Of a stretch of DNA of 48,406 nucleotides, positions 7,799 through 46,228 are shown one piece after another. Origin of the DNA: a virus; the IMG/VR virus record IMGVR_UViG_3300001351_000010, positions 1-48,406 of that record. The stretch is one strand, 5' to 3'. Within the stretch, counting starts at the first letter, position 1, and every line of letters begins with the position of its first letter. The position numbers were made by a program, and so were the translations under genes. The notes below the pieces were generated by a model. That model saw only the letters and a program-made list of their open reading frames with translations. It searched no databases and was not told where the DNA came from.

Positions 7799-7887
7799 GC
7801 CGCTGTGGTGGAATTGGTAGACACGACAGACTTAAAATCTGTTGAGCCGAATGGCTCGTGGCGGTTCGAGTCCGCCCAGCGGTACCA
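7799..7887 (+). tRNA. tRNA-Leu (anticodon UAA)
   Basis: The acceptor stem GCCGCTG/CAGCGGT is followed by discriminator A and an encoded CCA. The anticodon arm ACAGA-CTTAAAA-TCTGT gives anticodon TAA. A long variable arm (GAGCC/GGCTC) is as expected for Leu, and the T arm is GGCGG-TTCGAGT-CCGCC. TTA is visibly the main Leu codon of the phage genes, so the tRNA fits the codon usage. Confidence 0.95.
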
Positions 7888-7894
7888 ACACTCC

Positions 7895-7906
7895 TAAAAC
7901 GTTATT
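7895..7906 (+). repeat. 12-bp direct repeat, copy 1
   Basis: TAAAACGTTATT occurs here and again at 8107-8118, flanking tRNA-Arg and the tRNA-like element. It may be a leftover of tRNA gene gain or a processing signal, or chance in an AT-rich region. Confidence 0.4.
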
Positions 7907-7918
7907 TTTTTATAGAAT

Positions 7919-7995
7919 GGACTCGTAGCTCAGCTGGATAGAGCAATACCCTTCTAAGGTATCGGTCGTAGGTTCGAATCCTACCGGGTTCACCA
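7919..7995 (+). tRNA. tRNA-Arg (anticodon UCU)
   Basis: The acceptor stem GGACTCG/CGGGTTC (two wobble pairs) is followed by discriminator A and an encoded CCA. D arm GCTC/GAGC; anticodon arm ATACC-CTTCTAA-GGTAT giving TCT; T arm GTAGG-TTCGAAT-CCTAC. It reads AGA, visibly the preferred Arg codon in the phage genes. Confidence 0.95.
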
Positions 7996-15356: not shown

Positions 15357-15701
15357 ATGAAGTCATCACAATTAAAAACTCTAATTAAAGAATCAGTAAA
15401 AGAAGCAATTCAAGAAGAATTGAAGGAAATTTTACTGGAAGCTGTTAAGACTCCAAAAGTTACAACTATAGCATCAGTACCTCATCAAACTGTTGTAGAG
15501 CAACAAACTCCACAACAACCTGTTATGAGTGCGGAAGAAAAAAGATCAGCATATTCAAATATATTAGGTGATATGAGCGGACAATTTACATCAGCTCAAG
15601 TACAACCTAAATTTAACCCACAAGGCGGAGATGCAATTAATGGATCATTACCCCCAGGTGAAGTTGATATGGCACAAATATCAGGATTGTTAAAAAAATA
15701 A
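15357..15701 (+). CDS. putative virion protein with targeting-like N-terminus
   Basis: A 114-residue protein. Residues 1-30 are a strong amphipathic helix (KSSQLKTLIKESVKEAIQEE) ending ILLE-AV, which fits a T4-type prohead-protease site (L/I-x-E before A/G). The rest is Gln/Pro-rich and probably disordered. It sits between structural genes in the tail operon. The N-terminus resembles those of genes in the 33-46 kb cluster, such as the one at 39289. Confidence 0.55.
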   Translation: MKSSQLKTLIKESVKEAIQEELKEILLEAVKTPKVTTIASVPHQTVVEQQTPQQPVMSAEEKRSAYSNILGDMSGQFTSAQVQPKFNPQGGDAINGSLPPGEVDMAQISGLLKK

Positions 15702-33230: not shown

Positions 33231-33239
33231 TATTTATAA
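33231..33239 (+). promoter_or_regulatory. class B (late-type) promoter motif
   Basis: TATTTATAA beginning right after the nuclease stop codon, 15 nt before the ATG at 33255. It probably starts the 33-36.8 kb operon. Confidence 0.5.
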
Positions 33240-33254
33240 TAAAATATTCAATTT

Positions 33255-34052
33255 ATGATTTCACTAATTAAATTATTAAAAGAAGCTATAGCAGAGCCAA
33301 AGGCCATTATATTAGCAGGAGCACCAGGAGCTGGTAAAGGATACATTTTAAGAGGTTTAGATTTAGGTGGTATAAAAATACTAAATGTAGATGATATTTA
33401 TGTCCCCCTATTACAAAAAGCTAATGTAACATTAGATTTAAAAAATGCTACTCCTGAAGAAAGAAGTGAGCAAGCTAAACAAATGGCTGCTGCAAATAAA
33501 CAATTTAAAGGAGATGTAGAAGCTACTATAGAAGGCAAAGAATCTTTTATTTTAGATGGAACAGGAGCTTCATATAATCAAACTGCTAAATTAAAAAATG
33601 AATTAGAAGAAGCAGGATACAAAGTATTTATGCTTTATGTTTATACTGATTTAGAACGCTCACTATCTCAAAACCAAGACAGATATGAAAAATCAGAAGG
33701 TAAAGATAGAAGTTTAGCACCTGCTATTGTAATGCGTACATGGAAAAGTGTAACAGATAATTTACCTAAATATGCTGAATTATTTGGTAATAATTTTGTA
33801 GCTGTAGCCAATACATTAGATAATAGAATGCAAAATATAGATAAAATAATAAAAAAATATCTTACTCCATTTAAACCTGAAGGAACAAAACCAAAAACAC
33901 CAAAAGAACAAGCTAAATCAGACGCTAGAAAGGCTAAAGATAAAGAAGAGATTCAAATTATGCTAGATGATGATTTTGTATATGATGTAATTGAATATAC
34001 AATGTCTAAAGAAGAAGCACAGATGCGAATAGGTAAATTCTTAAATTCATGA
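33255..34052 (+). CDS. zeta-toxin-like P-loop kinase with targeting-like N-terminus
   Basis: A 265-residue protein. Residues 17-29 contain the Walker A motif GAPGAGKG, followed by NVDDIY near residue 45, a DGTG segment near residue 101 and the helical lid region with RYEKSEGKDRS. The layout fits the zeta-toxin/AAA_33 kinase group, which phosphorylate small molecules such as UDP-N-acetylglucosamine, or in other members nucleic acid ends. The first 14 residues (MISLIKLLKEAIAE) contain LKE-A and resemble a T4-type capsid-targeting peptide. The C-terminal part is Lys/Glu-rich and helical. It overlaps the next gene by 4 nt. The toxin role is inference. Confidence 0.7.
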   Translation: MISLIKLLKEAIAEPKAIILAGAPGAGKGYILRGLDLGGIKILNVDDIYVPLLQKANVTLDLKNATPEERSEQAKQMAAANKQFKGDVEATIEGKESFILDGTGASYNQTAKLKNELEEAGYKVFMLYVYTDLERSLSQNQDRYEKSEGKDRSLAPAIVMRTWKSVTDNLPKYAELFGNNFVAVANTLDNRMQNIDKIIKKYLTPFKPEGTKPKTPKEQAKSDARKAKDKEEIQIMLDDDFVYDVIEYTMSKEEAQMRIGKFLNS

Positions 34053-36055
34053 GTAAGGTAATAGCAGCATATGGTGGTGGTTTTAAACCACCCACTAAAG
34101 GACATTTAGAAGTAGTTAAAAAAGCTTTAGAATCTCTTCCTGAAATAGATGAATTTATTATTTATGTTGGGAGTAAGGAAAGAAATGGGGTAAGTCAAGC
34201 TGAAGCTATTTTAATTTGGGATATATTTAAAAAATATCTCCCTATGAAAGTCAGAATTGAACCTGCAAAATCACCAATTGGTGATATTGTTCGTTTAGGA
34301 AAAAATAACCCTGAGGATGAAGTTTATTTTATTATAGGAGGAAGAGAAGGAAGAGATGATGATTTAGAAGATATTGAAAATAGAACTAAAAACATAGAAT
34401 CCGCTTATCCTAATATGAAAGTAAAAGTACAATTTACACAAGATAAAGGTATGAGTGGAACTAATGCTAGAAAAGCAGCAAAAATGTCAACTGATGAATT
34501 ATCACCATTTCTACCTGATGAGTTAGATGATAGTGAAAAAGAAGAAGTATTTAATATCTTAAGACCAGTAATTAAAGAAGAAATTACCAAACCCCAATTA
34601 GATTCAATTGAAAAATATGCTGATAGTTTATTTAATAAATTAGGAATTGATATTGAGTTTACAAAACATTTCTTAGATAGGGTAAATGATGAAAGAAATA
34701 TTAAACCTATATCAGTACCAGAATTAGTAGGGATGTTTAAACGTTTACATAGAAAACACGGTAAACCTTTATCCAAAATAGACGATGATTTTAATGCTGT
34801 TGTTAAGGATTTTAATAATAATATTAATATACCATTTGCTATAAATGTAACTGATGATGATATTGAAATGTATGCCAAAACAGTAATGCGTAAAAAAGAT
34901 TTCAAAACCTCAACTCCTGTTATTGCCCTTAATGAAAACGCTTCATATACTAAAGATATTAATCTTATTGAAAAATTAGCTCAACTAACTCAACATATGT
35001 TAGATAAAGGCATGAACATAGAACCTTTACCTAGTTTAGAATTTGTTAATGGTGATAGTGAAAATGCACGCGAATTTCTTGGTAAGACAGCGTATTATGA
35101 CCCAAACACACAAACTATAGTATTATATACTGAAGGTAGACATCCTAAAGATATAGCGCGTAGTTACACTCATGAAATGATTCACCACATTCAAAATTTA
35201 GAAGATAGATTAGGTAATATTACTACAACAAACACTCAAGAAGATGATGAGTTAAATGATATTGAAGCAGAAGCTAATTTAAAAGGCACAATGACATTTA
35301 GAAATTGGACTGATAGTTTAAATGAGGTTGTTGTAGGTAACAAAATTGAATGTGATAAGTGTGGTTGGAGTTGGAAAATAGCAGATGGTGGAGATGATTT
35401 ATTTATATGTCATAAATGTGGGAACAATAATAAGCCTATAAATGAAGTAAAACCTTATAAACATAAACATGGTTTTGATGACAAATTAGGCAAAGATCCC
35501 TTTGGTTTAAACCAATTTGCTAGAGAAATAGCCGAAGGAGTTTTGATACCCGAAGAAGAGGTCGTATCTTCACCCCCTATGGAATATAAAATATACTCAG
35601 ACATGGATGGTGTGTTAACAGATTTTGACAAATCATTCGAAAAATACTCAAAAGGAATACCACCTAGAGAGTATGAAAAGAAATTTGGTAAAGATGGTTT
35701 TTGGAAATTAATTGATGGTGAAGGTAAAGTTGGATTTTGGGTAGGAATGCCTTGGATGGAAGATGCTAAACAGTATTGGGATTATATTAAAGATTACGAT
35801 GTAGAGTTATTATCTTCTCCATCTAGATCTGAAACATCAAGATTAGGTAAAAGATTATGGGTTAGAAATAATATGCCGGGCATTAAATTAACTTTAGCAC
35901 AAGCTTATAATAAGAAAAATTATGCTGAACCTAATCATATATTAATTGATGATAGAGAATCAAATATAGAACAATGGAAAGAAGCAGGTGGAATAGGCAT
36001 ATTACACACATCAGCAGCTGACACTATTAACCAACTTAAAGCATTAGGATTATGA
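34049..36055 (+). CDS. multidomain fusion: nucleotidyltransferase, unknown domain, HExxH metalloprotease-like, zinc ribbon, HAD phosphatase
   Basis: A 668-residue protein with at least four modules. Residues 1-145: cytidylyltransferase fold with GGFKPPTKGHL (T-x-G-H16-19) and GMSGTNARKAA (residues 135-144). Residues about 185-295: a helical/beta unit with FTKHFLDRVNDERN, not recognised, perhaps RNase-toxin-like. Residues about 300-425: zincin-like segment with HEMIH (His375, Glu376, His379) and a downstream ELNDIEAEAN that could supply the third ligand. Residues 435-457: zinc ribbon C-x2-C-x15-C-x2-C. Residues 518-668: HAD phosphatase of the 5'-nucleotidase type (DMDGVLTDFD with Asp518 and Asp520, LIDDRESN). 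IAE-G at 494-497 fits a T4-type prohead-protease site that would release the HAD domain. It is coupled to both neighbours by ATGA overlaps. Confidence 0.8.
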   Translation: MSKVIAAYGGGFKPPTKGHLEVVKKALESLPEIDEFIIYVGSKERNGVSQAEAILIWDIFKKYLPMKVRIEPAKSPIGDIVRLGKNNPEDEVYFIIGGREGRDDDLEDIENRTKNIESAYPNMKVKVQFTQDKGMSGTNARKAAKMSTDELSPFLPDELDDSEKEEVFNILRPVIKEEITKPQLDSIEKYADSLFNKLGIDIEFTKHFLDRVNDERNIKPISVPELVGMFKRLHRKHGKPLSKIDDDFNAVVKDFNNNINIPFAINVTDDDIEMYAKTVMRKKDFKTSTPVIALNENASYTKDINLIEKLAQLTQHMLDKGMNIEPLPSLEFVNGDSENAREFLGKTAYYDPNTQTIVLYTEGRHPKDIARSYTHEMIHHIQNLEDRLGNITTTNTQEDDELNDIEAEANLKGTMTFRNWTDSLNEVVVGNKIECDKCGWSWKIADGGDDLFICHKCGNNNKPINEVKPYKHKHGFDDKLGKDPFGLNQFAREIAEGVLIPEEEVVSSPPMEYKIYSDMDGVLTDFDKSFEKYSKGIPPREYEKKFGKDGFWKLIDGEGKVGFWVGMPWMEDAKQYWDYIKDYDVELLSSPSRSETSRLGKRLWVRNNMPGIKLTLAQAYNKKNYAEPNHILIDDRESNIEQWKEAGGIGILHTSAADTINQLKALGL

Positions 36056-36264
36056 GTAAATTAAATACACTAGCTGGGGGATATAAGGGGGGATCACCAA
36101 GATTAAGAAGTAATAATACTCCAAAACCCTTTATTGGAGACCCACCAAAACAGGTAGATGTAGAACAATTATCAAATTATCTTAAACAATTATATAGTGG
36201 GGGTAATTTATCAAAAGAAGGTGTACAAGTTATTATTAAAGAATTAAATAAATTAGTTTTATGA
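36052..36264 (+). CDS. small hypothetical protein
   Basis: A 70-residue basic protein with a Gly/Pro/Asn-rich first half and a helical second half (VEQLSNYLKQLYSGG, VQVIIKELNKLV). ATGA overlaps on both sides tie it into the operon. No family recognised. Confidence 0.6.
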   Translation: MSKLNTLAGGYKGGSPRLRSNNTPKPFIGDPPKQVDVEQLSNYLKQLYSGGNLSKEGVQVIIKELNKLVL

Positions 36265-36836
36265 GTAAAGTACAAGGTCTAAATAAACAATTTACTGAAA
36301 GAGATGTAAATAGAATGCGTAACCTTATCCAAGGAAAACACGGTGAAAAAGTAGGTCAGAGTGTGGGTTATGCTAAACATGATAAAGATTATAAAGAAGG
36401 TGATGTTTGGGAAGTAGATGGTAGGATGTGGACTATTAAAGAAGGTATTAAACAAAATATTACCAAATTAGATAAAGCAAAAAAAGCACACATAATGCCT
36501 ATTTTTTGCCCTAATTGTGGGTCTAAAATGCATACAGATTTAGATAAACCCTACTACAATATACATAAAAAATGTTTTAATTGTGTTGTTGAGTTTGAAC
36601 ATCATTTAAGAGTAGCAGGTTTATATGAAGCTTATGAGTCTAAAATCATCAACTCAGAAATAGATAATTTTGTTAATGAATTTAAAGCTTATATAGAAGC
36701 TGAGTTAGTATTATCTAATAAAGGTTTTATTACAGAACAGGGCGATGTTGAAAGTTGGGTAGGGGCTCCTAATAAATCAAAAGTATTAGAAGGATTAAAT
36801 AAAACTATCGAACATTTAAATAATCTTAAAAAGTAA
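36261..36836 (+). CDS. zinc-ribbon protein of unknown function
   Basis: A 191-residue protein. Residues 46-70 contain EGDVWEVDGRMWTIKEGIKQ. A zinc ribbon follows, with Cys83-x2-Cys86 and Cys105-x2-Cys108 (CPNCGSKMH, CFNCVVEFE), then a helical C-terminus. I recall similar proteins in marine T4-like phages but no function. It closes a four-gene chain linked by ATGA overlaps and may be a virion-associated nucleic-acid-binding protein. Confidence 0.65.
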   Translation: MSKVQGLNKQFTERDVNRMRNLIQGKHGEKVGQSVGYAKHDKDYKEGDVWEVDGRMWTIKEGIKQNITKLDKAKKAHIMPIFCPNCGSKMHTDLDKPYYNIHKKCFNCVVEFEHHLRVAGLYEAYESKIINSEIDNFVNEFKAYIEAELVLSNKGFITEQGDVESWVGAPNKSKVLEGLNKTIEHLNNLKK

Positions 36837-36848
36837 CATATTTTTATA

Positions 36849-36857
36849 TATTTATAA
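36849..36857 (+). promoter_or_regulatory. class B (late-type) promoter motif
   Basis: TATTTATAA 10 nt before the ATG at 36868, in the 31-nt gap after the zinc-ribbon gene. Confidence 0.5.
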
Positions 36858-36867
36858 CTAAAAATCA

Positions 36868-38415
36868 ATGGATAATTTTAATATCACTAAGTGGAATAGA
36901 AACCGCTATCTTAATGAAGGTCAAATAGACGAATATGGGGAATATAGATCTCGAGAAATAGAATTAGGAAAAGAATTAGATTCTCAATTTAATGATTATA
37001 ACCCTAACATTTCATTACAAATGTATAGTGGTGACAGACCAGATTCAGACCCATTAAAAGGCAAAGGCTTTGGTTCTATAACATTTAGTGTTAGAGAAGA
37101 ACTTGATCCTAATGATTGGAATAAAGCATTAAAGTGGGTAGAATCTAAAGGATTTGAAATAGAATCAGAATCTAATTGGTATGAAATGGAATATGATGGA
37201 GATAGAGCATGGTACCCAAAAATAAAATTTCAATTTAATGTAGCAGATTTTCCAATCAACGAAGGGATGAGTAAAGCAGGCATCAAAAAACAAATCAAAG
37301 ATGCAGAAGAAATATTAGATAGTGGTGAAGCTAATGGTGAACCTTTAACTTCTGAAACAGAAATGTTAGTACAGAAAGAACTTAAAAGACTACTTTCACT
37401 ATACAAATCAGTTAACGAAATGGATATAAATGACCCAGTACTCGTAAAAATAAGAGCTGCTAAAGATAGAACTGATAAAATACTATCCCAACCTAAATCA
37501 GATTTCGGTAAAGAATATGGTGATGCTGTTAAAAAAGCTCGTGGTGGTAATAATAATGATACTAAACTTAGATTTCTTAAGAAAGAAAGAGATCAATTAA
37601 TGCGTGATATGGAGCAAGAAGCTGAACCAGAAGGTGGACCAATTGCTGATGAATATGGTAGTAAACTAAACCGTATAGATAATGCAATTGCTAAACTATC
37701 AGGTAGAAAAGAAATGACTTATGACCAAGCAATAGCTGAAGGTAAAAAAATAGGAAAAAATTCATATAAAACTAGAACTGCTATAAACACAGCACCTGGA
37801 AAAACAGAAGATAAAGAAGTAATAATTGATAACATAAGTGATCTTGATAATGTTACTATTAGATGGAGAGGAACTAACCATCATGGTAATAAAACACTTA
37901 CAAATTTAAAATTTAAACAAGAATCTAAAGGTGATGATGATTTAATGGCAATATCAAATGATGATAAATGGCTATTTATAGTAGATAGGGATGACGACAC
38001 AGGGGAGATAGATTGGAATACTTTAATCGTAGATAGTAGAGAATTAGAACAAGACGATGGTAGCTATGCCGTAGATTCTGAAGATAGAATAAATACTAAA
38101 GAATCAATAGATGAAAGTGCTTCAACAGAAGAAAAAAGAATTGCCTTACGTGCTATTAAAAGTATAGCTAAGTATAGAGGTGTTAGTGAAGATGAAGCAA
38201 AACGAGATCTTACTAGAGCAATTGAACAGTTAGGTAGTTTAAAAGAAGCAATTAAAGATATTAAAGAAACTACTGAATTAGGAAAAAATCTAACTGAAGA
38301 ACTTTGTGCTAAAGGTAAAGCATATAGAAAGAAAAGAATGGCAGCTGGTGAGAAATCATCTGCTTACTTGAATGGTCGTGCTGTTAAAGTATGTAAAGGT
38401 CAAATGAAAGGGTAG
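36868..38415 (+). CDS. putative head-packaged protein with targeting-like N-terminus
   Basis: A 515-residue protein. The N-terminus MDNFNITKWNRNRYLNE-GQ ends in LNE before Gly, a T4-type prohead-protease pattern, and resembles the starts of the products of the genes at 45465 and 45746. Further L/I-x-E-G patterns occur (INE-G near residue 131, IAE-G near residue 290). The middle is charged and helical. The C-terminus (LCAKGKAYRKKRMAAGEKSS, AYLNGRAVKVCKGQMKG) is a Lys-rich module I recall at the ends of other phage proteins, perhaps for DNA binding. Function unknown; packaging into the head is inference. Confidence 0.6.
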   Translation: MDNFNITKWNRNRYLNEGQIDEYGEYRSREIELGKELDSQFNDYNPNISLQMYSGDRPDSDPLKGKGFGSITFSVREELDPNDWNKALKWVESKGFEIESESNWYEMEYDGDRAWYPKIKFQFNVADFPINEGMSKAGIKKQIKDAEEILDSGEANGEPLTSETEMLVQKELKRLLSLYKSVNEMDINDPVLVKIRAAKDRTDKILSQPKSDFGKEYGDAVKKARGGNNNDTKLRFLKKERDQLMRDMEQEAEPEGGPIADEYGSKLNRIDNAIAKLSGRKEMTYDQAIAEGKKIGKNSYKTRTAINTAPGKTEDKEVIIDNISDLDNVTIRWRGTNHHGNKTLTNLKFKQESKGDDDLMAISNDDKWLFIVDRDDDTGEIDWNTLIVDSRELEQDDGSYAVDSEDRINTKESIDESASTEEKRIALRAIKSIAKYRGVSEDEAKRDLTRAIEQLGSLKEAIKDIKETTELGKNLTEELCAKGKAYRKKRMAAGEKSSAYLNGRAVKVCKGQMKG

Positions 38416-38416
38416 T

Positions 38417-38953
38417 ATGAAAGATTTAAAAATAATACAAGAATTTTTTTCTAAACCTATCTATGAAAATGAAATAGATAGTTTAGGTGATGCTTTAGCT
38501 GATGAAATAAAAGATACCTTAGAAGATAAAAAAGATGAATTAAAAGAAATAGTTGATCCTATAACAATTTTATCTACAGTATTAGCTAGCACAACATTAA
38601 TCAACATTATAGCTAAATTCTCAGGTAAAATATTTAAAAAATATAATTTTGGTAAAGGTGAAGAAGCAGCTAAAAAAATCTATGATTTTACTCATAAATT
38701 AGAACAAGATTTTAAGGGACCCATTAAACGTGTAGTTTCATTATTTTCTAAAGATCCAAAAACAATAAAATTGGTAACTGATGGTTTATATGCTTTATTA
38801 ATTTTAAGTTTAGGTGTTAAAGCCGGTAGTGGAGCAGTACAAAGTTTATCAAAAGGTAATATAGCATCAGGAACCATTAGTGGTTTAAAGGCAGCTTTAA
38901 AAGGTAAAGATTTAACTACACTAATTAAAGATATAGCAGGAGCAGTAACATGA
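38417..38953 (+). CDS. putative packaged protein with hydrophobic segments
   Basis: A 178-residue protein. The N-terminus MKDLKIIQEFF resembles the T4 internal-protein leader in style. Two hydrophobic stretches at about residues 51-67 (ILSTVLASTTLINIIAKF) and 114-131 (LYALLILSLGVKAGSGAV) could insert into a membrane. One base separates it from the previous stop, and it overlaps the next gene by 4 nt. A protein able to interact with the host membrane after injection is conceivable, but nothing proves it. Confidence 0.55.
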   Translation: MKDLKIIQEFFSKPIYENEIDSLGDALADEIKDTLEDKKDELKEIVDPITILSTVLASTTLINIIAKFSGKIFKKYNFGKGEEAAKKIYDFTHKLEQDFKGPIKRVVSLFSKDPKTIKLVTDGLYALLILSLGVKAGSGAVQSLSKGNIASGTISGLKAALKGKDLTTLIKDIAGAVT

Positions 38954-39240
38954 TAACAGAAGAAAGAGTATATGAAATAGTTAAAGAATCCTTACGTGAT
39001 TGGTTTAAAAAAGAAAATTGGGTAAGAATTAACACATCAGGTAATATTGCAGGTGATTGTGGTACTATGAAAAAAGGAAAGGCCACTACCAGATGTTTAC
39101 CTAAGAAAAAAGCTCAATCTTTGTCAAAATCAGAAAGAAAATCTACAGTTGCTAAGAAAGTTAGGGGTAGTAAAAAAGGAAAACAATTTGTAAAAAATAC
39201 AAAGTCCGCAAAATATCGAAAAGGAACGTATGAGAAATAA
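38950..39240 (+). CDS. small very basic protein, probable DNA-binding
   Basis: A 96-residue strongly basic protein (many Lys and Arg from residue 35 on). Residues 1-20 are a helix (ITEERVYEIVKESLRDWFKK). The middle INTSGNIAGDCGTMKKGKAT followed by RCLPKKKAQSLSKSERKST is a module I recall from other T4-like phages without a name. It may condense DNA or be packaged with it. It overlaps the upstream gene by 4 nt. Confidence 0.6.
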   Translation: MITEERVYEIVKESLRDWFKKENWVRINTSGNIAGDCGTMKKGKATTRCLPKKKAQSLSKSERKSTVAKKVRGSKKGKQFVKNTKSAKYRKGTYEK

Positions 39241-39248
39241 TTTTTACA

Positions 39249-39257
39249 TATTTATAA
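39249..39257 (+). promoter_or_regulatory. class B (late-type) promoter motif
   Basis: TATTTATAA 31 nt before the ATG at 39289, leaving room for a normal leader. Confidence 0.5.
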
Positions 39258-39288
39258 TAAAATTAATCAACAGAAAAATACAAATATA

Positions 39289-39951
39289 ATGAAAAAATCG
39301 GAATTAAAAGAAATCATCAAAAGTCAGTTTTTAGCTGAAGCTGATGACTCTAAAAAAGGAAACAGCGAAGAACAAAAACGAATGGAAGGTGCCATTCGTG
39401 ATGATAGAGATCACATTAAAAATCTTGAAAAAGACATTAAAGATAACGAAGAAAAATTAGCTAAATTAAAGAAAGACTTTAAAAAAGATGTTAATGAAGC
39501 TGAGGATGTTGATGTTGAAGATAATGAAGATATTGATGTTGAAGATAATGAAGATATTGATGTAGATATTGAAGATGATGTTAACATTGATGATGAATCA
39601 TCCAAATCAGAAATTGAAGTTGATTCAGAATTAGCAGGTGAAGATTCTGATGTAGCAGCTATATTAGGTCTTTTAACTAAGGCACAAGAAGAAGCTAAAG
39701 GTTTAGGAGATGAAAAACTATTAGACCAAATAGGAAATACAATTACTTATTATACTAGAGCACACGTTGTAGCTACTAATGAAGAACAAGGAATGGATCC
39801 TGAAAGATTCGTAGGTTCGGGTGGTGATGAAGTTGATTCTGATAGTATAGTTAATGTAACAAAAGACAACCCAGCTGAAGATGCTGAGATTGGATTTGCA
39901 TTAGATGAGTCAATTCAAAGATTTGCTAAATTAGCAGGATTAGAAAAATAA
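39289..39951 (+). CDS. acidic protein with targeting-like N-terminus
   Basis: A 220-residue very acidic protein. The N-terminus MKKSELKEIIKSQFLAE-AD ends in LAE before Ala, the T4 prohead-protease pattern, comparable in form with the T4 internal-protein leader. Residues 30-65 are a charged coiled coil, followed by an Asp/Glu/Val/Ile repeat (DVEDNEDI twice, from a perfect 24-nt tandem repeat). The C-terminal helix ESIQRFAKLAGLEK resembles the ends of some phage scaffold or head proteins. A scaffold/core-like or packaged role is inferred. Confidence 0.6.
   Translation: MKKSELKEIIKSQFLAEADDSKKGNSEEQKRMEGAIRDDRDHIKNLEKDIKDNEEKLAKLKKDFKKDVNEAEDVDVEDNEDIDVEDNEDIDVDIEDDVNIDDESSKSEIEVDSELAGEDSDVAAILGLLTKAQEEAKGLGDEKLLDQIGNTITYYTRAHVVATNEEQGMDPERFVGSGGDEVDSDSIVNVTKDNPAEDAEIGFALDESIQRFAKLAGLEK
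39511..39558 (+). repeat. 24-nt tandem repeat, two perfect copies
   Basis: Two identical 24-base units at 39511-39534 and 39535-39558 encode DVEDNEDI twice inside the acidic region of the 39289 gene; a degenerate third unit follows. Confidence 0.85.
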
Positions 39952-39986
39952 ATAAAAACAGTTATTAACAAATAAAATTTATAAAA

Positions 39987-40142
39987 ATGGACACAAAAGA
40001 ATTATTAGAAGGAATTAAAGAACAAGTATTATTAATTGAAGCAGAATTAGAAAAAACAAGTGCTGCCGCAAAGGGTAGATGTAGATCTGCTGCCAATAAA
40101 ATTAAAAACTTATCTGCTGATTTCAAAAGAAACCATAAATAG
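39987..40142 (+). CDS. small basic histone-like protein
   Basis: A 51-residue protein starting MDTKELLEGIKEQV, where LLE-G fits a prohead-protease site. Its C-terminal half is strongly basic (AAAKGRCRSAANKIKNLSAD, ending FKRNHK), resembling short phage DNA-binding or condensing peptides. Removing the acidic N-terminus would leave a basic peptide, as in T4 internal proteins. Two nt separate it from the next ATG. Confidence 0.55.
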   Translation: MDTKELLEGIKEQVLLIEAELEKTSAAAKGRCRSAANKIKNLSADFKRNHK

Positions 40143-40144
40143 GA

Positions 40145-42289
40145 ATGAACGAGCGTAAACTGTCAAAAGCAGAACTCAAAAAGAGGGAAGATATTATCAT
40201 GAATATGAAAGGTAACAAACGTGACCTTGTTAAAAAATATGGTAAAGATGCTGAGGCAGTTATGTATGGACGTGCAACTAATATGGCTAAAAAACAAACA
40301 AAAGAAATGAGAGATCCTAATTTAACAGAGTTGATTAAAGATGCATTAAAAAACCCATCAAAAGCAGATTTAAATAAGGATGGAAAGCTATCAGATTATG
40401 AAAAAACTAGGGGGGCTGCTATTGAAAAAAACATAAAAGAATTAGACTCATCAATTCCGTTGGGAAAAGATTTTACTTATGATTATGAAGATATAGGTCA
40501 ATTTTATTTAGAAGGTTTTGGTAGACCACACTCATTAAATAATAGTGAATTAGAAGCATTAGGTAAGCAAATTGTTGGTAGACTATATGGTGGTAACATT
40601 AGTAAAGCCTATGATGATTTAAAAAATAAAGGTAAAATGAATGAAGTAGAATTACCTACATCAATTATCCAGAAATTTGCTAATGAAATTAAGGACCCCC
40701 AAGGATTTGCAAAAGCAATGCTTGGGATTTTTAATTCTATACAAGATAAAGAACAAAAAGATTATTCTAAAAATCAAAAATTTGGAAGAGTACTTAGTTA
40801 TTTAAAAGATATAGCCGATAGTGAAGCTGAAGAAATAAATGAAGCACCAGGAACAACATTAGATTTATCTCAAGATGATATGGATAAACTTCATCAAAGT
40901 GGTAAATTAGAACTTGATGGTCATAAACTTTTATATAAAGTAAAAGAAGATATTGATTTAGGTCATGAAGATAATGAACCTGGAATGCTTAAAGCAGAGC
41001 TTTACCATATTGGTAGTTATGCTATGGAATTATATAAAATGATGGATGATTTAGAAGGTATGGGAGAAATTGATTTCCCTGCTTGGTGGCAATCAAAAAT
41101 CACAACAGCTAAAAATAATATATCAGGAGCTAAACATTATCTTGAATTTGAACTTAAAGAACCTAAAATTGATGCCGTAGTTGATGTAGCTACAGACGTA
41201 GTAGATGAAGAAATAGGCCAACTAGGCACAGATGGTGATACAGGATTTCAAGCGTCATTATACACACCAAACGAATTAGGTGATGCATCAGTAGGAAGAG
41301 AATATGCATCAGGAGCATTTGAGGAAAGTAAAAAACCAATAGAAGAAGCAATGAATATGAATAAATGGCGCCGCGCCTACAACGGAAAAGCATTTGCTAA
41401 AAAAACAGTATATTTAACAGATTATAATAATAATAAAAAGAGATATACTATTTATTTTAAATATAAGGAAACACCATCTAAAGATGTTGTATCACTTAAA
41501 GAATCTCATTATGGTAATCATGAAGGTAGTGGAATGGCATTTGCAATGTCTAATTTACAAAACAAACCAGTATATCAATTTACATCTGATGATAAATTTG
41601 AGTGGGACAATGAAGAAGAATTTGATGCTTGGGTAGCAGAAGGACCTAAAGGTTTAGAAAGTTTACTAAGCTTTTTCTTAGGTGGTAGAAATGTTGATGA
41701 TGCTATTAAATCTTGGTTTGACACAGGTGTTACTGATAAAAGTAAATTAAAAATAGGACCTGCAGAATATTATCCAGATGCAGCCGTAAATGAATCTACT
41801 TCTAAACATAGTTCAATAGCAGAAAAATTAGCTAAAGAGTTAAAAGAAGGTTTACCTAAAGGATTTTGGGATAAAAAAATCGATGCTAAAGATGAAGACC
41901 AAGATGGTAAAATAGATGAAGACTTAAAAGGTCTAATGGCACAGGGAGAAAAAATAGCTGCATTTGCTAATAAGCAAAGTGGGTATGAAGGGGGTGTATC
42001 TTCACCTGTAAGAGGTGTTTTAGCAGCTATGGCAGCAGCGGGTGCACCTGATTTTGATGGTGATGATGAAATGGTAAGTTATTATACTAGAAAATTAACT
42101 AAAGCTATTGAAACTCAAAAAGGTAAAAAATATATGAGTGGTTTTTCTATTGATGAATCATACGATACTTTAGTTAATAAAATTAAAAAACAAGGTAAAT
42201 CTAGTAAGGCAGCTAAAGCAATTGCAGGTGCAGTAGCATCATATAAAGCAAAAGGCGGAGGTAAAGGCCCAACAGCAAAACAAAAATAA
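40145..42289 (+). CDS. large modular putative packaged protein
   Basis: A 714-residue protein built of modules I recall from other phages. Residues 8-52: KREDIIMNMKGNKRDLVKKYG followed by DAEAVMYGRATNMAKK, basic. An EF-hand-like DLNKDGKLSDYE lies near residue 78 and a second Asp-rich loop (DAKDEDQDGKIDED) near residue 580. Residues about 277-345: EDNEPGMLKAELYHIGSYA and FPAWWQSKITTAKNNI. The C-terminus is Lys/Gly-rich (SSKAAKAIAGAVASYKAKGG). INE-A and IEE-A patterns near residues 236 and 397 could be prohead-protease sites separating modules. Function unknown; virion association inferred from context. Confidence 0.6.
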   Translation: MNERKLSKAELKKREDIIMNMKGNKRDLVKKYGKDAEAVMYGRATNMAKKQTKEMRDPNLTELIKDALKNPSKADLNKDGKLSDYEKTRGAAIEKNIKELDSSIPLGKDFTYDYEDIGQFYLEGFGRPHSLNNSELEALGKQIVGRLYGGNISKAYDDLKNKGKMNEVELPTSIIQKFANEIKDPQGFAKAMLGIFNSIQDKEQKDYSKNQKFGRVLSYLKDIADSEAEEINEAPGTTLDLSQDDMDKLHQSGKLELDGHKLLYKVKEDIDLGHEDNEPGMLKAELYHIGSYAMELYKMMDDLEGMGEIDFPAWWQSKITTAKNNISGAKHYLEFELKEPKIDAVVDVATDVVDEEIGQLGTDGDTGFQASLYTPNELGDASVGREYASGAFEESKKPIEEAMNMNKWRRAYNGKAFAKKTVYLTDYNNNKKRYTIYFKYKETPSKDVVSLKESHYGNHEGSGMAFAMSNLQNKPVYQFTSDDKFEWDNEEEFDAWVAEGPKGLESLLSFFLGGRNVDDAIKSWFDTGVTDKSKLKIGPAEYYPDAAVNESTSKHSSIAEKLAKELKEGLPKGFWDKKIDAKDEDQDGKIDEDLKGLMAQGEKIAAFANKQSGYEGGVSSPVRGVLAAMAAAGAPDFDGDDEMVSYYTRKLTKAIETQKGKKYMSGFSIDESYDTLVNKIKKQGKSSKAAKAIAGAVASYKAKGGGKGPTAKQK

Positions 42290-42290
42290 C

Positions 42291-42731
42291 ATGACATCAG
42301 CAGAATTAAGGGAAAAGATAAGATTACTTGTCCCAACTGTTGTTGGTAACAAGAAACAAGCAGAAGCAGCTGCTGTGGAATATGATGAATTAACAAAATT
42401 CCCAGAGTTAAAAGCTATTATTGTTGACTTGTTAACTCATGAATTTGATTCTTTTTTATCATCAATTGATTGGGTTGCCCCAAAACCATCAACTTTTAGA
42501 ATAAATTTAAAAAATGATCAAGCTTTTTATTTAACATACTCAAGAACAAGTTGGGTAGCTCAAGTAGAAGGTAAAAGATATTACTTATTAAATCTACCAG
42601 AAGAAGAAAGAGCAACAGAAGCTATTGCACGTATTTTAAGATATGGTGTAAAGGCTGACACTGATGCTGTTGAAGGTGGTGGAGAAGATGTAGATGTGGA
42701 GGTAGATGATAACGTTGATATAGACATATAA
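42291..42731 (+). CDS. hypothetical protein with acidic tail
   Basis: A 146-residue protein. The core (residues 1-120) is mixed alpha/beta, with YLTYSRTSWVAQVEGKRYYL in the middle. The last 20 residues are an Asp/Val-rich acidic tail resembling the repeat in the product of the 39289 gene. It starts right after the 40145 gene stop and ends in TAATG overlap with the next gene. No family recognised. Confidence 0.6.
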   Translation: MTSAELREKIRLLVPTVVGNKKQAEAAAVEYDELTKFPELKAIIVDLLTHEFDSFLSSIDWVAPKPSTFRINLKNDQAFYLTYSRTSWVAQVEGKRYYLLNLPEEERATEAIARILRYGVKADTDAVEGGGEDVDVEVDDNVDIDI

Positions 42732-43768
42732 TGGATAATATAACAAAATATTTACATAAAATAGCATATAAATTTCCTAAAGGATATCCTGATATGGGTG
42801 ATCCTAAAGATAAAGATATGTTATTTGAATTAATAAAAACTGTAATAGAAGCAGAAGAAGAAGTAGAAATTGATGTCAAAACATCACAACCTTCTGGGGG
42901 GTCTGAAACATATAATGATACTATTAGATATGCTATATATGGTAAAGATTACAAAGATAAACCAATTCCAAAACCTAAGAGTAAATACCCTTATAAAAAT
43001 TCTACATTTAGTATAGCAGTTAGCTCTGAAGATAAAGAATTATTTACCAAACTATACCCTGTTAAACCCCCAAAAGTAGGAAAAGAAATAGGTAGTGCTG
43101 GTTCTTTAGGTGTGGGGAATGGAGAAATTGCATTATATTGGTTATATCATTTTTCAAATAGTGCTAAAGTAACAGAAGGTAGAGAAAAAGATGACCCGGA
43201 TTTATACTTTAACAATCAGGGAGTAGAGGTTAAATCTTGGAGTACTGATAAAGGTTTACACGGTTTAGGAAGATTTGGAGCTGATAAAGAAAATTTATCA
43301 TTACTTTCACTTATATTTGGGTTTAGTGCTCTAGTAAGTGTTTTTGATGGTGAAGGTGAATTGCCAAAAACAGTAAATCCAACTAATTTTAGAGGATTTC
43401 AACTTACGGCTGCTATGGAAAAAGTAAAAGAGTTTAAAAGCCTTTTAAATAAAAATAGTGATTTAGTAGATGAATATCCTTTATTTAAAAATATTAAATC
43501 TAATGTAGATAGAGTATACAATACATTAAATTTAGAAGATTCAGATAGCCCTCAGGATATGGGGAGAAAGATGGCAATACAACTTTTAAAACCAAAATTA
43601 GATAGAAAACCAGGAGATGGTAACCATTTAGCAAATGTAAAAGACAATGGGGATATTAAATTCTTTCAAATTAATTTTGATGAATTAAAAAATAGTGATG
43701 AATTAATGAAAGACTTTGAAGTAAAACAGAGTGCAATTAGAATTAATTTTGATAAAATTTGGGGTTAA
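42731..43768 (+). CDS. putative PD-(D/E)XK-type nuclease in late operon
   Basis: A 345-residue protein. The stretch GNGEIALYWL (Glu132), DPDLYF (Asp155/Asp157) and GVEVKSW (Glu166, Lys168) fits the E...D-x(8-10)-E-x-K core of restriction-like nucleases. I recall related proteins in other T4-like phages. The N-terminus MDNITKYLHKI resembles the leaders of neighbouring genes but lacks a clear L/I-x-E-G/A site. Located among putative packaged proteins, it may act on DNA during packaging or after injection. Nuclease activity is inferred from motifs only. Confidence 0.6.
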   Translation: MDNITKYLHKIAYKFPKGYPDMGDPKDKDMLFELIKTVIEAEEEVEIDVKTSQPSGGSETYNDTIRYAIYGKDYKDKPIPKPKSKYPYKNSTFSIAVSSEDKELFTKLYPVKPPKVGKEIGSAGSLGVGNGEIALYWLYHFSNSAKVTEGREKDDPDLYFNNQGVEVKSWSTDKGLHGLGRFGADKENLSLLSLIFGFSALVSVFDGEGELPKTVNPTNFRGFQLTAAMEKVKEFKSLLNKNSDLVDEYPLFKNIKSNVDRVYNTLNLEDSDSPQDMGRKMAIQLLKPKLDRKPGDGNHLANVKDNGDIKFFQINFDELKNSDELMKDFEVKQSAIRINFDKIWG

Positions 43769-43786
43769 AAAATAAAATAAAACAAT

Positions 43787-45139
43787 ATGTGTAACTGCGG
43801 ATGTAATACTTGTGATACTAATAAATCAACGTTAATGTTAAATGAAAATTTAGCACCGCGTGCTATATTGTCTGAGGGTTTAAAACACCATATAGACAAC
43901 GATAAACCGCTTACTGAACATTTATACCGTGCGGGTTCACGTGCTTATTTTGATTTATTTGCAGAAGCAAGATCTTTATATAGTAGAGGCATTTTAAAAT
44001 TTACTAATGAAGATGATTTAGCTTTACTTACAGAAACTAATTTAGGTCATTTTGGTATGTTTGAAGGTAAAAAAGTGCCTTTAGATTTTCCTATTGAATT
44101 AAATGAGCAAATGGACATATATGATGACATTGCAAATATGGAATTTGGAATGGATTATGACCAATTAGGTGATAATGAAAAAGAATGGGTTCGTGATGAA
44201 ATTGATAATATGGAAATGAATGAAGTTACCAGTTATAGTGGTTTTAATAGAAACCCAGAGGACCCAGATTCCGAACCATTTCAACCAACAGGGTCAGTAT
44301 CTGAATTTAGAGAAGATTTAAGAGCATTATTTGGTAAATTTAAGGGTGATTTAAAAAATCCTGAGTTTATAAAAGGAGTAGCTCAAATAATGGTTAATTG
44401 GAAATCACTTTTAAGAAGTCAATTAAATGAATCAGATTCTAAATATCCAAATTTTGATTTAAATAAAAATATAAAATACAAAGATACATCTATTTCAAGT
44501 GGGATGTGGAGATACACAGGTCAAGAACAAGGTGGAGCAGGTGTTTATAGAAATTTAAATAATGGTCAAATATTAGCTTTTGATAGAAGTGATTTTGATA
44601 TATTTAAAAATAATCTTAGCAGTCATTTTGATATAAATGAAGGAACATTTAATTCTCCTAACCATATTGCAATTTTTGATGGTCCTGATGGCATGGTAGA
44701 TGTTTATAAGACACCAGAGGGTTATTATTTCCAAACTGATAATTATGATGGAGAAGCTTCTAATGCTAAAGAAGCAGCTAAATGGTTAAAAGATAATGGT
44801 TTTGTTAGATTACAAGCTGGTAGTTTAGATGAAGCTAAAAAGAAAAAAGCTAAGAAAAAAGATAATAGACCAATAGGAAAACCAATGCGTTCATCTTCAG
44901 GTGGAAAAGCTTACAAAGTATACGTTAAGGATCCTAAAACTAAAAAGATTAAAACCGTTAGATTTGGATCTGGTGGTTTAAGAGCAAAAATAAATGACTC
45001 TAAGGCCCGCGCAGCATTTGCAAAAAGACACAAATGTTCAACTAAAAAAGACAGAACTAAAGCAGGTTATTGGAGTTGTAGATTACCTAGATATGCAAAA
45101 TTACTCGGACTCAAATCAAGCTTTTCTGGATTCTGGTAA
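43787..45139 (+). CDS. putative packaged protein with Cys-rich start and basic C-terminal module
   Basis: A 450-residue protein. It begins with a Cys cluster (MCNCGCNTC) that could bind metal. AILSE-GL near residue 27-31 fits a prohead-protease site. The middle is acidic and helical, then beta-rich (residues 280-330). From about residue 350 it becomes very basic, and the end contains KIKTVRFGSGGLRAKINDSK, RAAFAKRHKCSTKKDRTKAG and YWSCRLPRYAKLLGL, a Lys/Arg-rich module I recall at the ends of other phage virion proteins. The gene overlaps the next by 47 nt. Confidence 0.6.
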   Translation: MCNCGCNTCDTNKSTLMLNENLAPRAILSEGLKHHIDNDKPLTEHLYRAGSRAYFDLFAEARSLYSRGILKFTNEDDLALLTETNLGHFGMFEGKKVPLDFPIELNEQMDIYDDIANMEFGMDYDQLGDNEKEWVRDEIDNMEMNEVTSYSGFNRNPEDPDSEPFQPTGSVSEFREDLRALFGKFKGDLKNPEFIKGVAQIMVNWKSLLRSQLNESDSKYPNFDLNKNIKYKDTSISSGMWRYTGQEQGGAGVYRNLNNGQILAFDRSDFDIFKNNLSSHFDINEGTFNSPNHIAIFDGPDGMVDVYKTPEGYYFQTDNYDGEASNAKEAAKWLKDNGFVRLQAGSLDEAKKKKAKKKDNRPIGKPMRSSSGGKAYKVYVKDPKTKKIKTVRFGSGGLRAKINDSKARAAFAKRHKCSTKKDRTKAGYWSCRLPRYAKLLGLKSSFSGFW

Positions 45140-45404
45140 ACCATATATTGACTTAGAAGTTACAGATAATTATATTCTAAGACAATTTAATGAATCAATT
45201 GATCCTATAGAATTACTTTGGCATCGTGATGATGAAGACAGAGTAGTTGAAATTATAGGAGAAACTGATTGGAGTTTACAACTTGATAATTCCCTTCCAT
45301 CTTCCCTTCAGGAACGTATATTTATACCTCGACATCAGTGGCATAGAGTAATCAAAGGCACTGGAAGTTTAAAACTTAAAATATATAAAAATGAACAAAT
45401 GTGA
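45093..45404 (+). CDS. cupin-like small protein
   Basis: I chose the ATG at 45093 (103 residues) because an upstream in-frame start at 44994 would lie deep inside the preceding gene and encode sequence unlike the rest. The core ELLWHRDDEDRVVEIIGETD, LQLDNSLP, FIPRHQWHRVIKGTG and LKLKIYK resembles the beta-barrel cupin fold, with His residues at the usual metal positions (WHRD, QWHR). I recall similar proteins in T4-like phages. It might be a metal-binding or sugar-binding protein; the activity is unknown. Confidence 0.65.
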   Translation: MQNYSDSNQAFLDSGKPYIDLEVTDNYILRQFNESIDPIELLWHRDDEDRVVEIIGETDWSLQLDNSLPSSLQERIFIPRHQWHRVIKGTGSLKLKIYKNEQM

Positions 45405-45459
45405 TTGTCAAATATGTAAGTGCGGTACTTCATGTAGTTGTACTTGTTGTAATTGTTAA
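45391..45459 (+). CDS. 22-residue Cys-rich (metallothionein-like) peptide
   Basis: ATG at 45391 opens a 22-codon ORF with nine cysteines arranged C-x-C-x2-C-x-C-x3-C-x-C-x-C-C-x-C (MNKCDCQICKCGTSCSCTCC, then NC). Such density is typical of metallothionein-like metal chelators. It overlaps the cupin-like gene by 14 nt in another frame and ends 5 nt before the next ATG, so it fits the operon spacing. An A-rich leader precedes the ATG. Confidence 0.5.
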   Translation: MNKCDCQICKCGTSCSCTCCNC

Positions 45460-45464
45460 ATAAA

Positions 45465-45740
45465 ATGGAAAATTTCGATTATAAAAAATATTTAGCTGAA
45501 GGTCGCTTATACGAAAACGTATTAGCTCAAAAACTTAGAGACGAAGCAAAACACCCAGACTCAAAAGTGGGTGCTGCTATATTTAACAAGTATGCTGAAA
45601 AAGTAGAAAAAGCTAAAAAAGAAGATTATGTAAAACTTATAAAAGCTATGGAAAGCGAATTAATATCTAAACACCCTGATACATTCAGTGGTGAAGATGA
45701 CATTCCAGGAAGCTTTTTACGTGAGGACAAAATAAATTAA
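45465..45740 (+). CDS. small putative internal protein with targeting-like N-terminus
   Basis: I chose ATG at 45465 (91 residues) rather than an upstream TTG at 45453. The N-terminus MENFDYKKYLAE-GRLYENV nearly repeats that of the next gene (MNNFDLTKYLAE-GKLLNEF), including 18 identical bases in the DNA, and LAE-G fits a T4-type prohead-protease site at residue 12. The rest is helical and Lys/Glu-rich. The pattern matches capsid-targeted internal proteins; the function is unknown. Confidence 0.6.
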   Translation: MENFDYKKYLAEGRLYENVLAQKLRDEAKHPDSKVGAAIFNKYAEKVEKAKKEDYVKLIKAMESELISKHPDTFSGEDDIPGSFLREDKIN

Positions 45741-45745
45741 AATAA

Positions 45746-46228
45746 ATGAATAACTTCGATTTAACAAAATATTTAGCTGAAGGTAAGCTACTAAATGAAT
45801 TCGTAGGTAAAGCCTTAGAAGATAGAAATCAACCTCTTTATGATAAATTAGTAGCAGGATCTGGCAAATCAGATACTATGGAAGGTGAAATGTTAAGAGC
45901 TATTAATAGAATTGTTTATCGTTATTATAATGATGGAGATGAATACCATACAGGATATGGTACTGAAACAGCAGGACCAGCTCATTCATTTTTGGTTAAT
46001 GCTAACACAGGTGTAAGATCAGCAATGAATATGATATTTAGAAATGGAACTAATTATGAAGAAACTATTGAGGATGCTTTAGAGCATATTTTATCTCATA
46101 TTGAAGCTAAACAAGGTAAATACACCCCTAATACAGTAGGTGATATGTTTGATTATGAAGCTGAATTTGAAGACGATACATATGAAGAAGAAGATTATGA
46201 TGATTATGATGATGATTATGATTATTAA
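45746..46228 (+). CDS. putative internal protein, paralogous N-terminus, acidic tail
   Basis: A 160-residue protein starting MNNFDLTKYLAE-GKLLNEF, a near copy of the upstream gene's start with the same LAE-G site. The body is alpha/beta (RAINRIVYRYYNDGDEYHTG). The last 25 residues are almost only Asp, Glu and Tyr (EEEDYDDYDDDYDY). DNA-mimic proteins are similarly acidic, but this is only a suggestion. Five nt separate it from the previous gene. Confidence 0.6.
   Translation: MNNFDLTKYLAEGKLLNEFVGKALEDRNQPLYDKLVAGSGKSDTMEGEMLRAINRIVYRYYNDGDEYHTGYGTETAGPAHSFLVNANTGVRSAMNMIFRNGTNYEETIEDALEHILSHIEAKQGKYTPNTVGDMFDYEAEFEDDTYEEEDYDDYDDDYDY

Follow-up and report, generated by a model that had tools for sequence, protein, structure and literature searches.

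Exchangeable N-terminal leaders on unrelated proteins encoded in a phage late gene block

Results

Genes of the block

The window, a 48,406-nt stretch of viral DNA, comes from a T4-like marine phage, most likely with a Bacteroidetes host; genes were counted in its near-identical contig, G001 (164 kb). The block described here opens with a zeta-toxin-like P-loop kinase (33255..34052; all features are on the + strand), which lies above the Zeta_toxin gathering score (PF06414, E = 5.4e-17; 62.3 bits versus 22.3) and begins with the leader MISLIKLLKE↓A (33255-33284; arrows mark predicted cuts). It is followed by a 668-aa multi-enzyme fusion (34049..36055) comprising a nucleotidyltransferase, an HExxH region, a zinc ribbon and an NT5C-like nucleotidase. 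PDB sequence searches with the kinase and with the fusion gave no match. Two proteins without a leader come next, a small one (36052..36264) and a zinc-ribbon-like one (36261..36836). They served as negative controls within the block: L/I-x-E was present in 0/10 and 0/42 of their distinct orthologue N-termini, respectively (7.3 expected for the latter).

The 515-aa protein at 36868..38415 has the class-A-like leader MDNFNITKWNRNRYLNE↓G (36868-36918; site in 10/10 orthologue N-termini) and ends in a small basic module (about residues 464-515) that recurs on other proteins. A 178-aa protein with two hydrophobic stretches (38417..38953) starts with MKDLKIIQEFFSKPIYE↓N (38417-38467), with the site in all 14 orthologue N-termini; this leader is swapped for class A in three cases (L013, L014 and L020). 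The only PADLOC match was a weak one of this protein to HamA (E = 0.0011 over 71 residues). The basic 96-aa protein (38950..39240; phrog_23735, E = 5.5e-11) carries the leader MITEERVYEIVKE↓S, and L/I-x-E was found in 16/16 of its orthologue N-termini versus 7.7 expected. An acidic 220-aa protein (39289..39951), preceded by a late-promoter-like element, has the leader MKKSELKEIIKSQFLAE↓A (39289-39339; site in 13 of 14 orthologues), and a 51-aa protein (39987..40142) begins with MDTKELLE↓G and shows weak Hc1 histone-like similarity below the cut-off (E = 0.029). The 714-aa protein at 40145..42289, for which Pfam and PHROGs returned no family matches, has its site at chance level (10/16 orthologue N-termini, 7.6 expected), and the same is true of a conserved 146-aa protein without leader (42291..42731; 16/35, 14.2 expected).

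The gene at 42731..43768 encodes a putative PD-(D/E)XK-type nuclease, in which the residues of an E...D...E-x-K motif (E132, D157, E166 and K168) are invariant in 8 orthologues. Its leader module of roughly 40 residues, MDNITKYLHKIAYKFPKGYPD...LFE...VIEAE, has L/I-x-E at its end in 36/36 sequences and also precedes other bodies; the sites of this protein and of the 38950 protein lie near residues 33-40. The nuclease model had a pLDDT of 82, with low confidence at residues 40-56, and a fold search of the PDB gave no match with E < 1. The next protein (43787..45139, 450 aa) combines a Cys-rich N-terminus containing APRAILSE↓G (LSE↓G at residues 28-31; a site within the first 45 residues in 23/23 orthologues) with a basic C-terminal module, which is also found in pelagiphage and roseophage proteins; phrog_7595 matches at residues 349-432. 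A 91-aa protein (45465..45740) and a 160-aa protein (45746..46228; site in 8/8 orthologues) carry the class-A leaders MENFDYKKYLAE↓GRLYE↓N and MNNFDLTKYLAE↓GKLLNE↓F. Outside the block, a 114-aa protein encoded among tail and baseplate genes (15357..15701) starts with MKSSQLKTLIKESVKEAIQEELKEILLE↓A (...KEILLE↓A).

A late-promoter-like TATTTATA element (ATATTTATAA) is located at 33231..33238, 24 nt ahead of the kinase gene, with further copies at 36849, 39249, 46240 and 15342 (positions were moved to window numbering by a shift of 62942). In G001, 26 of 41 copies have an ORF starting no more than 80 nt downstream, in many cases that of a late structural gene; in the Flavobacterium phage vB_FspM_immuto (Immuto) this applies to 25 of 30. 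The T4-type late promoter (TATAAATA) was not enriched before late genes, the element of this clade being TATTTATAA.

Leader sites are enriched in the block and conserved in orthologues

A sequence-only reading of the window had listed eight L/I-x-E-G/A sites, and all eight were found at the gene starts it gave. Within the first 20 residues, this motif occurs in 6/15 block genes but in only 6/177 ordinary genes of G001 (Fisher p = 5.6e-5), the latter consisting of 128 early genes (6 with the motif) and 49 other late genes (none). Composition shuffles of the block gave 0.57 ± 0.74 motif genes, and the site density in the first 30 residues was 17.8 per 1000 for the block versus 1.4-2.6 elsewhere. 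Since early genes also slightly exceeded shuffles (10/128 versus 3.7, first 30 residues), a single site is weak evidence, and we regard orthologue conservation as the decisive sequence criterion for leader status. It separates leader genes from leaderless neighbours inside the block: the site is conserved in orthologues of 33255, 36868, 38417, 38950, 39289, 42731, 43787 and 45746, and orthologue N-termini revealed no conserved leader site for 36052, 36261, 42291 and 46265 (the last without a site in 3 orthologues). The original list was therefore incomplete, as 38417, 38950 and 42731 have conserved sites once P1' is left free; the proposed requirement for G or A after the Glu was too strict, with 38417 having IYE↓N. 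The view of the block as a cargo operon would apply to most of its genes, which bear leaders, but not to 36052 and 36261, which never have the site, or to 42291, where it is at chance.

For the kinase, L/I-x-E was present in 47/51 distinct orthologue N-termini versus 15.6 after shuffling, although shuffle statistics overstate significance because related sequences are not independent. The kinase leaders contain 57 LxE versus 7 reversed ExL; past residue 30 of the block proteins, LxE is not commoner than ExL. The kinase orthologues carry differing, exchanged leaders, and in a comparison of distinct kinases the motif was found in the leaders of 50/50, with a fixed distance from the Glu to the kinase domain in 49/50.

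One leader precedes many unrelated proteins

Stronger evidence came from related contigs, where the leader M(D/E)NFDLKKYLAEGKLLKE stands before some 40-67 proteins unrelated to one another, a family count that is biased where loci were picked by leader pattern. Bodies were called unrelated at a threshold of E 1e-5, from residue 31 to the end; their leaders align at high score. The string FDLKKYLAEGK was found in 110 viral stretches, beginning at ORF residue 4 in 83 of them and followed by 40 unrelated bodies, and had zero occurrences in 84,980 cellular genomes (257 Gb). At loci not picked by leader, N-termini were common to 113 unrelated family pairs, compared with 5 and 15 for internal windows; of the 15 families at unbiased loci, 14.8 had L/I-x-E in the leader and only 9.3 had Glu at the first site. 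Each genome holds few class-A genes. The leaders thus appear to be interchangeable modules, with one leader on many proteins and one protein with various leaders. Several leader-bearing proteins are small and acidic, without enzyme features.

The fusion protein has sites in its linkers

The sequence-only reading had counted the fusion and a nuclease among the cargos. The N-terminal signature it describes is absent from both: the nuclease has the longer leader, and the fusion of the window phage lacks an N-terminal leader and has its sites in linkers, with predicted cleavage after E177, E296, E426, E466, E496 and E502. IKE↓E (E177) and LNE↓N (E296), at 34575..34937, have a Glu that is invariant in a 13-sequence alignment (A2). 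LNE↓V, INE↓V, IAE↓G and IPE↓E, at 35318..35557, flank the zinc ribbon and precede the NT5C domain, as judged also from orthologue linkers. In the AlphaFold2 model, domain 1-173 is confident and the linkers are not (low-pLDDT segments 174-228, 270-303, 387-432 and 463-509). The nucleotidyltransferase gave a Foldseek match to PPAT/NadD (E = 3e-7), and the nucleotidase matched NT5C phrog_2643 (E = 9.7e-25). Linkers preceding the NT5C domain contain L/I-x-E in 24/25 cases; these junctions have 42 sites versus 18.0 ± 3.7 in shuffles, and the NT5C domain itself has 4 versus 26.2 ± 4.7. Avoidance of LxE was seen for NT5C, but neither for the kinase domain nor across the block, and so was rejected as a rule for cargo domains. 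Because the domain junctions carry sites and the stand-alone nucleotidase domain has its own leader, the fusion probably represents a cargo polyprotein that can be cleaved. To our knowledge, processing of a cargo polyprotein by a prohead protease has no described precedent.

A gp21-type protease is encoded among the head genes

A gene for an S77 (T4 gp21-type) prohead protease is present 12 kb outside the window (contig position 58414-58842; PF03420, E = 5.6e-32, above the curated cut-off). Its catalytic-type His and Ser align with those of T4 gp21, the N-terminal LLIET is the same in both, and it adjoins gp20-, gp22- and gp23-like genes. The gp22- and gp23-like proteins carry L/I-x-E sites, including GLLEG near residue 35 of the clade's gp23; the T4 record gives IAE↓A, ITE↓A, LRE↓S and LTE↓A as substrate sites. 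The L/I-x-E density is highest in core proteins (3.4 per 100 residues), and one core-protein homologue holds a complete class-A leader internally. S77 above the curated cut-off was also found in related contigs, including the cultured Immuto. It was seen in 6/15 other leader- or kinase-bearing contigs; most of those without it are fragments, and it was not found in one of 124 kb.

Immuto (Immutovirus) is the nearest cultured relative (TerL 59%). Its syntenic block lies between the terminase and the genes for primase and exonuclease, and the phage has five class-A leader genes and the S77 protease. In contrast to the window phage, Immuto encodes the nucleotidyltransferase and the nucleotidase separately (genes 183 and 184; the nucleotidase bears a leader of its own), and many of its bodies are not the same. 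Among cultured phages, the class-A leader was found in Immuto strains only; Microcystis phage Mel-JY01 (TerL 51%) has gp22/gp23 and protease sites, but the genes examined there include none with a class-A leader.

Discussion

The leaders, their sharing and exchange, the conservation of their sites, the protease gene and the upstream elements are established at the sequence level. The best explanation, which we consider likely, is that the block is a late operon of prohead-targeted, protease-matured internal proteins similar to those with T4 capsid targeting sequences (CTS). The core of the sequence-only reading thus stood where it could be checked, as a gp21-type protease is encoded and genes outside the block have the sites less often. 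The leaders shared by unrelated bodies, their exchange on one body and the conserved junction sites extend well past the argument of that reading. Most products of the operon would be synthesised behind a short N-terminal leader, and one would be a precursor of several domains. By analogy with T4, the leaders would attach to the prohead core and the proteins would thereby be enclosed as the head assembles; the S77 protease would cut after L/I-x-E, removing leaders and separating precursor domains. Leader-bearing proteins are, on this analogy, most likely loaded into the virus head. The mature enzymes might remain with the DNA and enter the cell at infection; such injection is suggested more weakly, as is a role of the cargos in counter-defence or takeover. 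Against this explanation, several block genes lack a leader, and the fusion has none at its N-terminus here, so that its route into the head is unaccounted for. The lack of an LxE excess past residue 30 of the block proteins and the detection of S77 in only 6 of the 15 other contigs also count against it, and a search for virion proteomics of clade members found none. A broader picture can be offered only tentatively: a clade-wide portable address code with leaders mimicking prohead core segments, an open-ended, fast-exchanging set of enzymes, some as polyproteins, and a virion that serves as a counter-defence kit.

The leaders could instead be cleaved assembly tags. The tagged proteins would then be factors of the head core or scaffold, with a role confined to the prohead, and would not reach the host. 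The top site density of core proteins, the internal leader in one core homologue and the small acidic cargos without enzyme features would fit, but a scaffolding role is not obvious for the kinase, nucleotidyltransferase, nucleotidase and putative nuclease, and their active-site motifs are intact in folded domains, which makes this unlikely. A role of the shared N-termini as peptides that dock to another assembly (neck, tail tube, membrane or chaperone), with L/I-x-E as a by-product of a Leu/Glu-rich amphipathic helix, is in our view very unlikely. In its favour, the leaders resemble helices with a high content of L, K and E, early genes slightly exceed shuffles, and 15357, with a similar N-terminus, is located among tail genes (in Immuto, an N-terminus resembling it sits upstream of the baseplate gene; 81525); however, the excess is seen neither in composition shuffles nor with the reversed motif, the Glu is exactly placed before the kinase despite differing leaders, and domain junctions bear this motif too. 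An origin by chance, from amphipathic N-termini of proteins rich in Leu and Glu and with sharing by recent gene duplication, is barely credible and already disfavoured: a single four-residue motif is common and class-A genes are few per genome, but unrelated bodies have leaders aligning at high score, the block is enriched, and the leader is absent from cellular genomes.

If the preferred explanation of T4-CTS-like internal proteins is true, the leaders provide a simple sequence rule for predicting head-travelling phage proteins, dozens of uncharacterised families become candidate first-wave effectors against bacterial defences, compact natural packaging tags are available in the cultivable relative Immuto, and T4-like recruitment and swapping of internal proteins becomes testable beyond enterobacteria.

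The system appears to resemble the known T4 trick at much larger scale. The capsid targeting sequences of T4 internal proteins IPI-III and Alt are cut by gp21 (PMC9026906). As in T4, a short N-terminal leader ending in L/I-x-E precedes unrelated mature bodies, an aromatic residue stands at position 4 and just ahead of L/I-x-E (MKTYQEFIAE↓A in T4, MDNFDLKKYLAE↓G in the clade), and the S77 protease lies next to gp20, gp22 and gp23. The clade differs from T4 in that its cargo families, unrelated to one another, number in the tens, and in that proteins exchange leaders of at least four classes. Leaders also occur within ORFs (in tandem leader-body units and in a core protein), and a precursor of several enzymes has sites at its junctions. 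The Pfam and PHROGs matches of the block include no body homology to IPI, IPII, IPIII or Alt. The Dar system of P1 (DarA, DarB, Hdf, DdrA/B, Ulx) loads antirestriction and accessory proteins into the head, and the DarB N-terminal signal sends a reporter to the capsid (PMC9024508). In the clade, too, several proteins are proposed as head-loaded; P1 differs in having no small interchangeable leader family and apparently no separate scaffold. In the giant phages SPN3US and phiKZ, a gp21-related protease cleaves many head proteins after Glu residues, and ejection proteins have redundant sites in their propeptides (PMC5694885, PMC9026906). Several of these propeptides exceed 100 residues, whereas the leaders of the clade have 10-45, and the phiKZ motif is S/A-x-E compared with L/I-x-E in the clade.

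Leader-bearing and leaderless genes in the late-type block

The sequence-only reading had placed L/I-x-E-G/A sites at the starts of several genes of the late-type block (33255-46228), and every quoted site was present. We tested the same motif on the genes of contig G001 (164,118 bases), which contains the window nearly unchanged and was read over its full length. Within the first 20 residues, 6 of 15 block genes carried the motif, compared with 6 of the 177 other genes, early and other late (p=5.6e-5), and composition shuffles of the block predicted 0.57 ± 0.74 positive genes against the 6 observed. Since the early genes were also slightly above their shuffles, the motif alone cannot call single genes, and we therefore examined orthologues and non-homologous proteins that share a leader.

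Conservation of the site was clear for eight genes, whose orthologue N-termini contained L/I-x-E as follows (shuffled expectation in parentheses): 33255, 47/51 (15.6); 36868, 10/10 (3.2); 38417, 14/14 (8.3); 38950, 16/16 (7.7); 39289, 13/14 (8.1); 42731, 23/23 (11.4); 43787, 23/23 (11.2); and 45746, 8/8 (4.0). By contrast, the counts were zero or near the shuffled value for 36052 (0/10), 36261 (0/42; 7.3), 42291 (16/35; 14.2), 40145 (10/16; 7.6) and 46265 (0/3). The block is thus a mixture, in which the leaderless neighbours serve as internal controls. The N-terminal module of 40145-42289, NERKLSKAELKKREDIIMNMKGNKRDLVKKYGKDAEAVMYGRATNMAKK, also opens several different proteins of related contigs.

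The 42731 product begins with a longer leader module (about 40 residues), which is found in front of other bodies too and has L/I-x-E at its end in 36/36 sequences; in the window, its last site is VIE|A (the bar marks the predicted cut), with Val replacing Leu or Ile. The body of this putative nuclease has an invariant E...D...ExK signature, and its structure model found no neighbour in the PDB.

Exchange of leaders between proteins

Orthologues of the zeta-toxin-like kinase 33255 start with MISLxxLLKE, MIKLxDLLLE, MKLYDILKE or MDNFDYKKYIAEGKLLKE, and all continue into PKAIILAGAPGAGKG. L/I-x-E was present in the leaders of 50/50 distinct kinases (18.7 ± 3.4 in shuffles), exactly four residues separated its Glu from PKA in 49/50, and LxE occurred 57 times versus 7 for the reversed ExL. 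Similarly, MKDLKIIQEFF... of the 38417 family is exchanged in relatives for class-A leaders (type LKKYLAE|G).

Conversely, one leader stands on many proteins. FDLKKYLAEGK occurs in 110 stretches in IMG/VR. Of its copies in ATG-started ORFs, 83 begin at residue 4 and 9 at residue 3. The bodies that follow it form 40 clusters with no similarity detectable between them, and a search of bacterial and archaeal genomes (257 Gb) gave no occurrence. When only the leader's upstream half was used for selection, 67 body families were recovered, of which essentially all have L/I-x-E inside the leader and 56 the first-site Glu, in loci picked in part by the leader; among 15 families from loci not so picked, the values were 14.8 and 9.3, respectively. 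A motif-independent test gave 113 pairs of unrelated families with common N-termini (score of at least 50) versus 5 and 15 for internal stretches, a few of the sharing groups being ordinary lipoprotein or signal-peptide N-termini or fragmented families.

Most leaders have two tandem sites, YLAE and then LLKE, which recall the redundant propeptide sites of the giant phages phiKZ and SPN3US (PMC9026906, PMC5694885). A 343-aa cargo-type ORF has one complete leader at residue 1 and another at residue 89; it is the first of five consecutive ORFs (locus L017, 15371-18104; also L022, contig G006), all of which begin with a class-A or class-A-like leader. At another locus (L028, 14859-16680), three genes with unrelated bodies share the near-identical leader MIKLIDILKE.

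Prohead protease, core protein and predicted late expression

The gp21-type protease implied by the sequence-only reading was found at contig position 58345-58947 as an S77 gene (E 5.6e-32), whose GELDHP and SSRG motifs align with T4 gp21 and whose N-terminal LLIET is identical. A second search found S77 in 8/9 related records, some being near-identical contigs of the same phage. T4 gp21 cleaves after L/I-x-E (PMC9026906), and the T4 GenBank record gives IAE|A in IPIII and gp22, ITE|A in IPI, LRE|S in gp24 and LTE|A at 65 in gp23; the gp23-like proteins of the window phage, Immuto and Mel-JY01 have GLLEG near residue 35. Ten residues of IPIII are enough for targeting, positions 4 and 7 serving targeting and 8 and 10 processing (PMC9026906). 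When IPIII (YQEFIAE|A) is aligned with the class-A leader at the protease site, each shows an aromatic residue directly preceding L/I-x-E as well as one at residue 4, a likeness for which we do not claim homology.

A prohead core protein homologue (L108, 8286-9398) contains KENKMDNFDLKKYLAEGKLSKENKMIKLTDLINES at residue 194, a class-A leader and, right behind it, a leader of a second type, and the window phage's core protein has KENKMISLLNLLENSPL at the same place, close to the kinase leader MISLIKLLKEA. This suggests that leaders may imitate or copy core-protein segments.

In G001 and Immuto, many late structural genes have the element ATATTTATAA 15-45 nt upstream, and window copies lie at 33231, 36849, 39249, 46240 and 15342, upstream of late genes. 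Late expression of the block would be consistent with the copies preceding 33255, 36868 and 39289, and ATATTTATAA, which differs from the T4 consensus TATAAATA, is possibly the clade's late promoter.

The 34049 fusion and the predicted cargo

The 668-aa fusion 34049, which we read as a probable cargo polyprotein, opens directly with a nucleotidyltransferase domain (Foldseek: PPAT, E 3e-7, TM 0.73-0.80 on target; also NadD) and ends in an NT5C-type nucleotidase. Low-confidence linkers in its model span 174-228, 270-303, 387-432 and 463-509 and hold 6/9 of its L/I-x-E sites (E177, E296, E426, E466, E496, E502). Among 25 fused relatives, 24 have L/I-x-E in the linker before the nucleotidase (42 sites versus 18.0 ± 3.7 shuffled), and the nucleotidase domain itself has 4 versus 26.2 ± 4.7 expected. 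Immuto, L028, L074, L169 and L203 encode the nucleotidase as a gene of its own, and there the protein begins with a leader that ends in L/I-x-E. Some 34049 orthologues have an N-terminal leader; its absence from the window phage's copy is the main gap.

We consider it quite likely that the leader proteins are targeted to the head and cleaved in the prohead; their injection into the host is less certain. A cargo of zeta-like kinase, nucleotidyltransferase, nucleotidase, putative nuclease and small basic proteins would fit an early role in counter-defence or takeover, and phages that restore NAD against NAD-depleting defences are known (NARP1; PMC12774641). The capsid targeting sequence (CTS) proteins of T4, the Dar proteins of P1 and the propeptides of giant phages are already established (PMC9026906, PMC9024508, PMC5694885); in the literature searched, neither this leader family nor the exchange of leaders on a single enzyme nor cargo polyproteins were described.

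Phage, host and other features

The window covers the initial 48.4 kb of the 59.6-kb virus contig G000. Because of its terminase and the order gp17, gp20, core proteins, gp21, gp22, gp23, we assign the phage as T4-like; its nearest cultured relative is Flavobacterium phage Immuto (TerL identity 59%). The 8143-9126 product has a C-terminal T9SS type-B-like sorting sequence (VFIPNVLTPNNDGINDVWEI...YNRWGSLVFEG), which would fit a Bacteroidetes host, and is possibly a phage protein exported through the host secretion system. Genes for tRNA-Leu(taa) and tRNA-Arg(tct) lie at 7799-7995. Within the 2722-aa putative tail protein (20094-28262) lies a Hint-like stretch (TCFVEGTKISTTKDSIKNVEDFKPGDFILTYNPDDN ... 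YYANGILVHN) that looks like a self-cleaving or intein-type module in a phage structural protein. A phage-encoded protein (L002, 916-2391; contig 47115-48590), whose gene has ambiguous bases in that contig, has an N-terminus, GAGVANVNAATKLVDEGY, like that of an FAD- or NAD-binding oxidoreductase.
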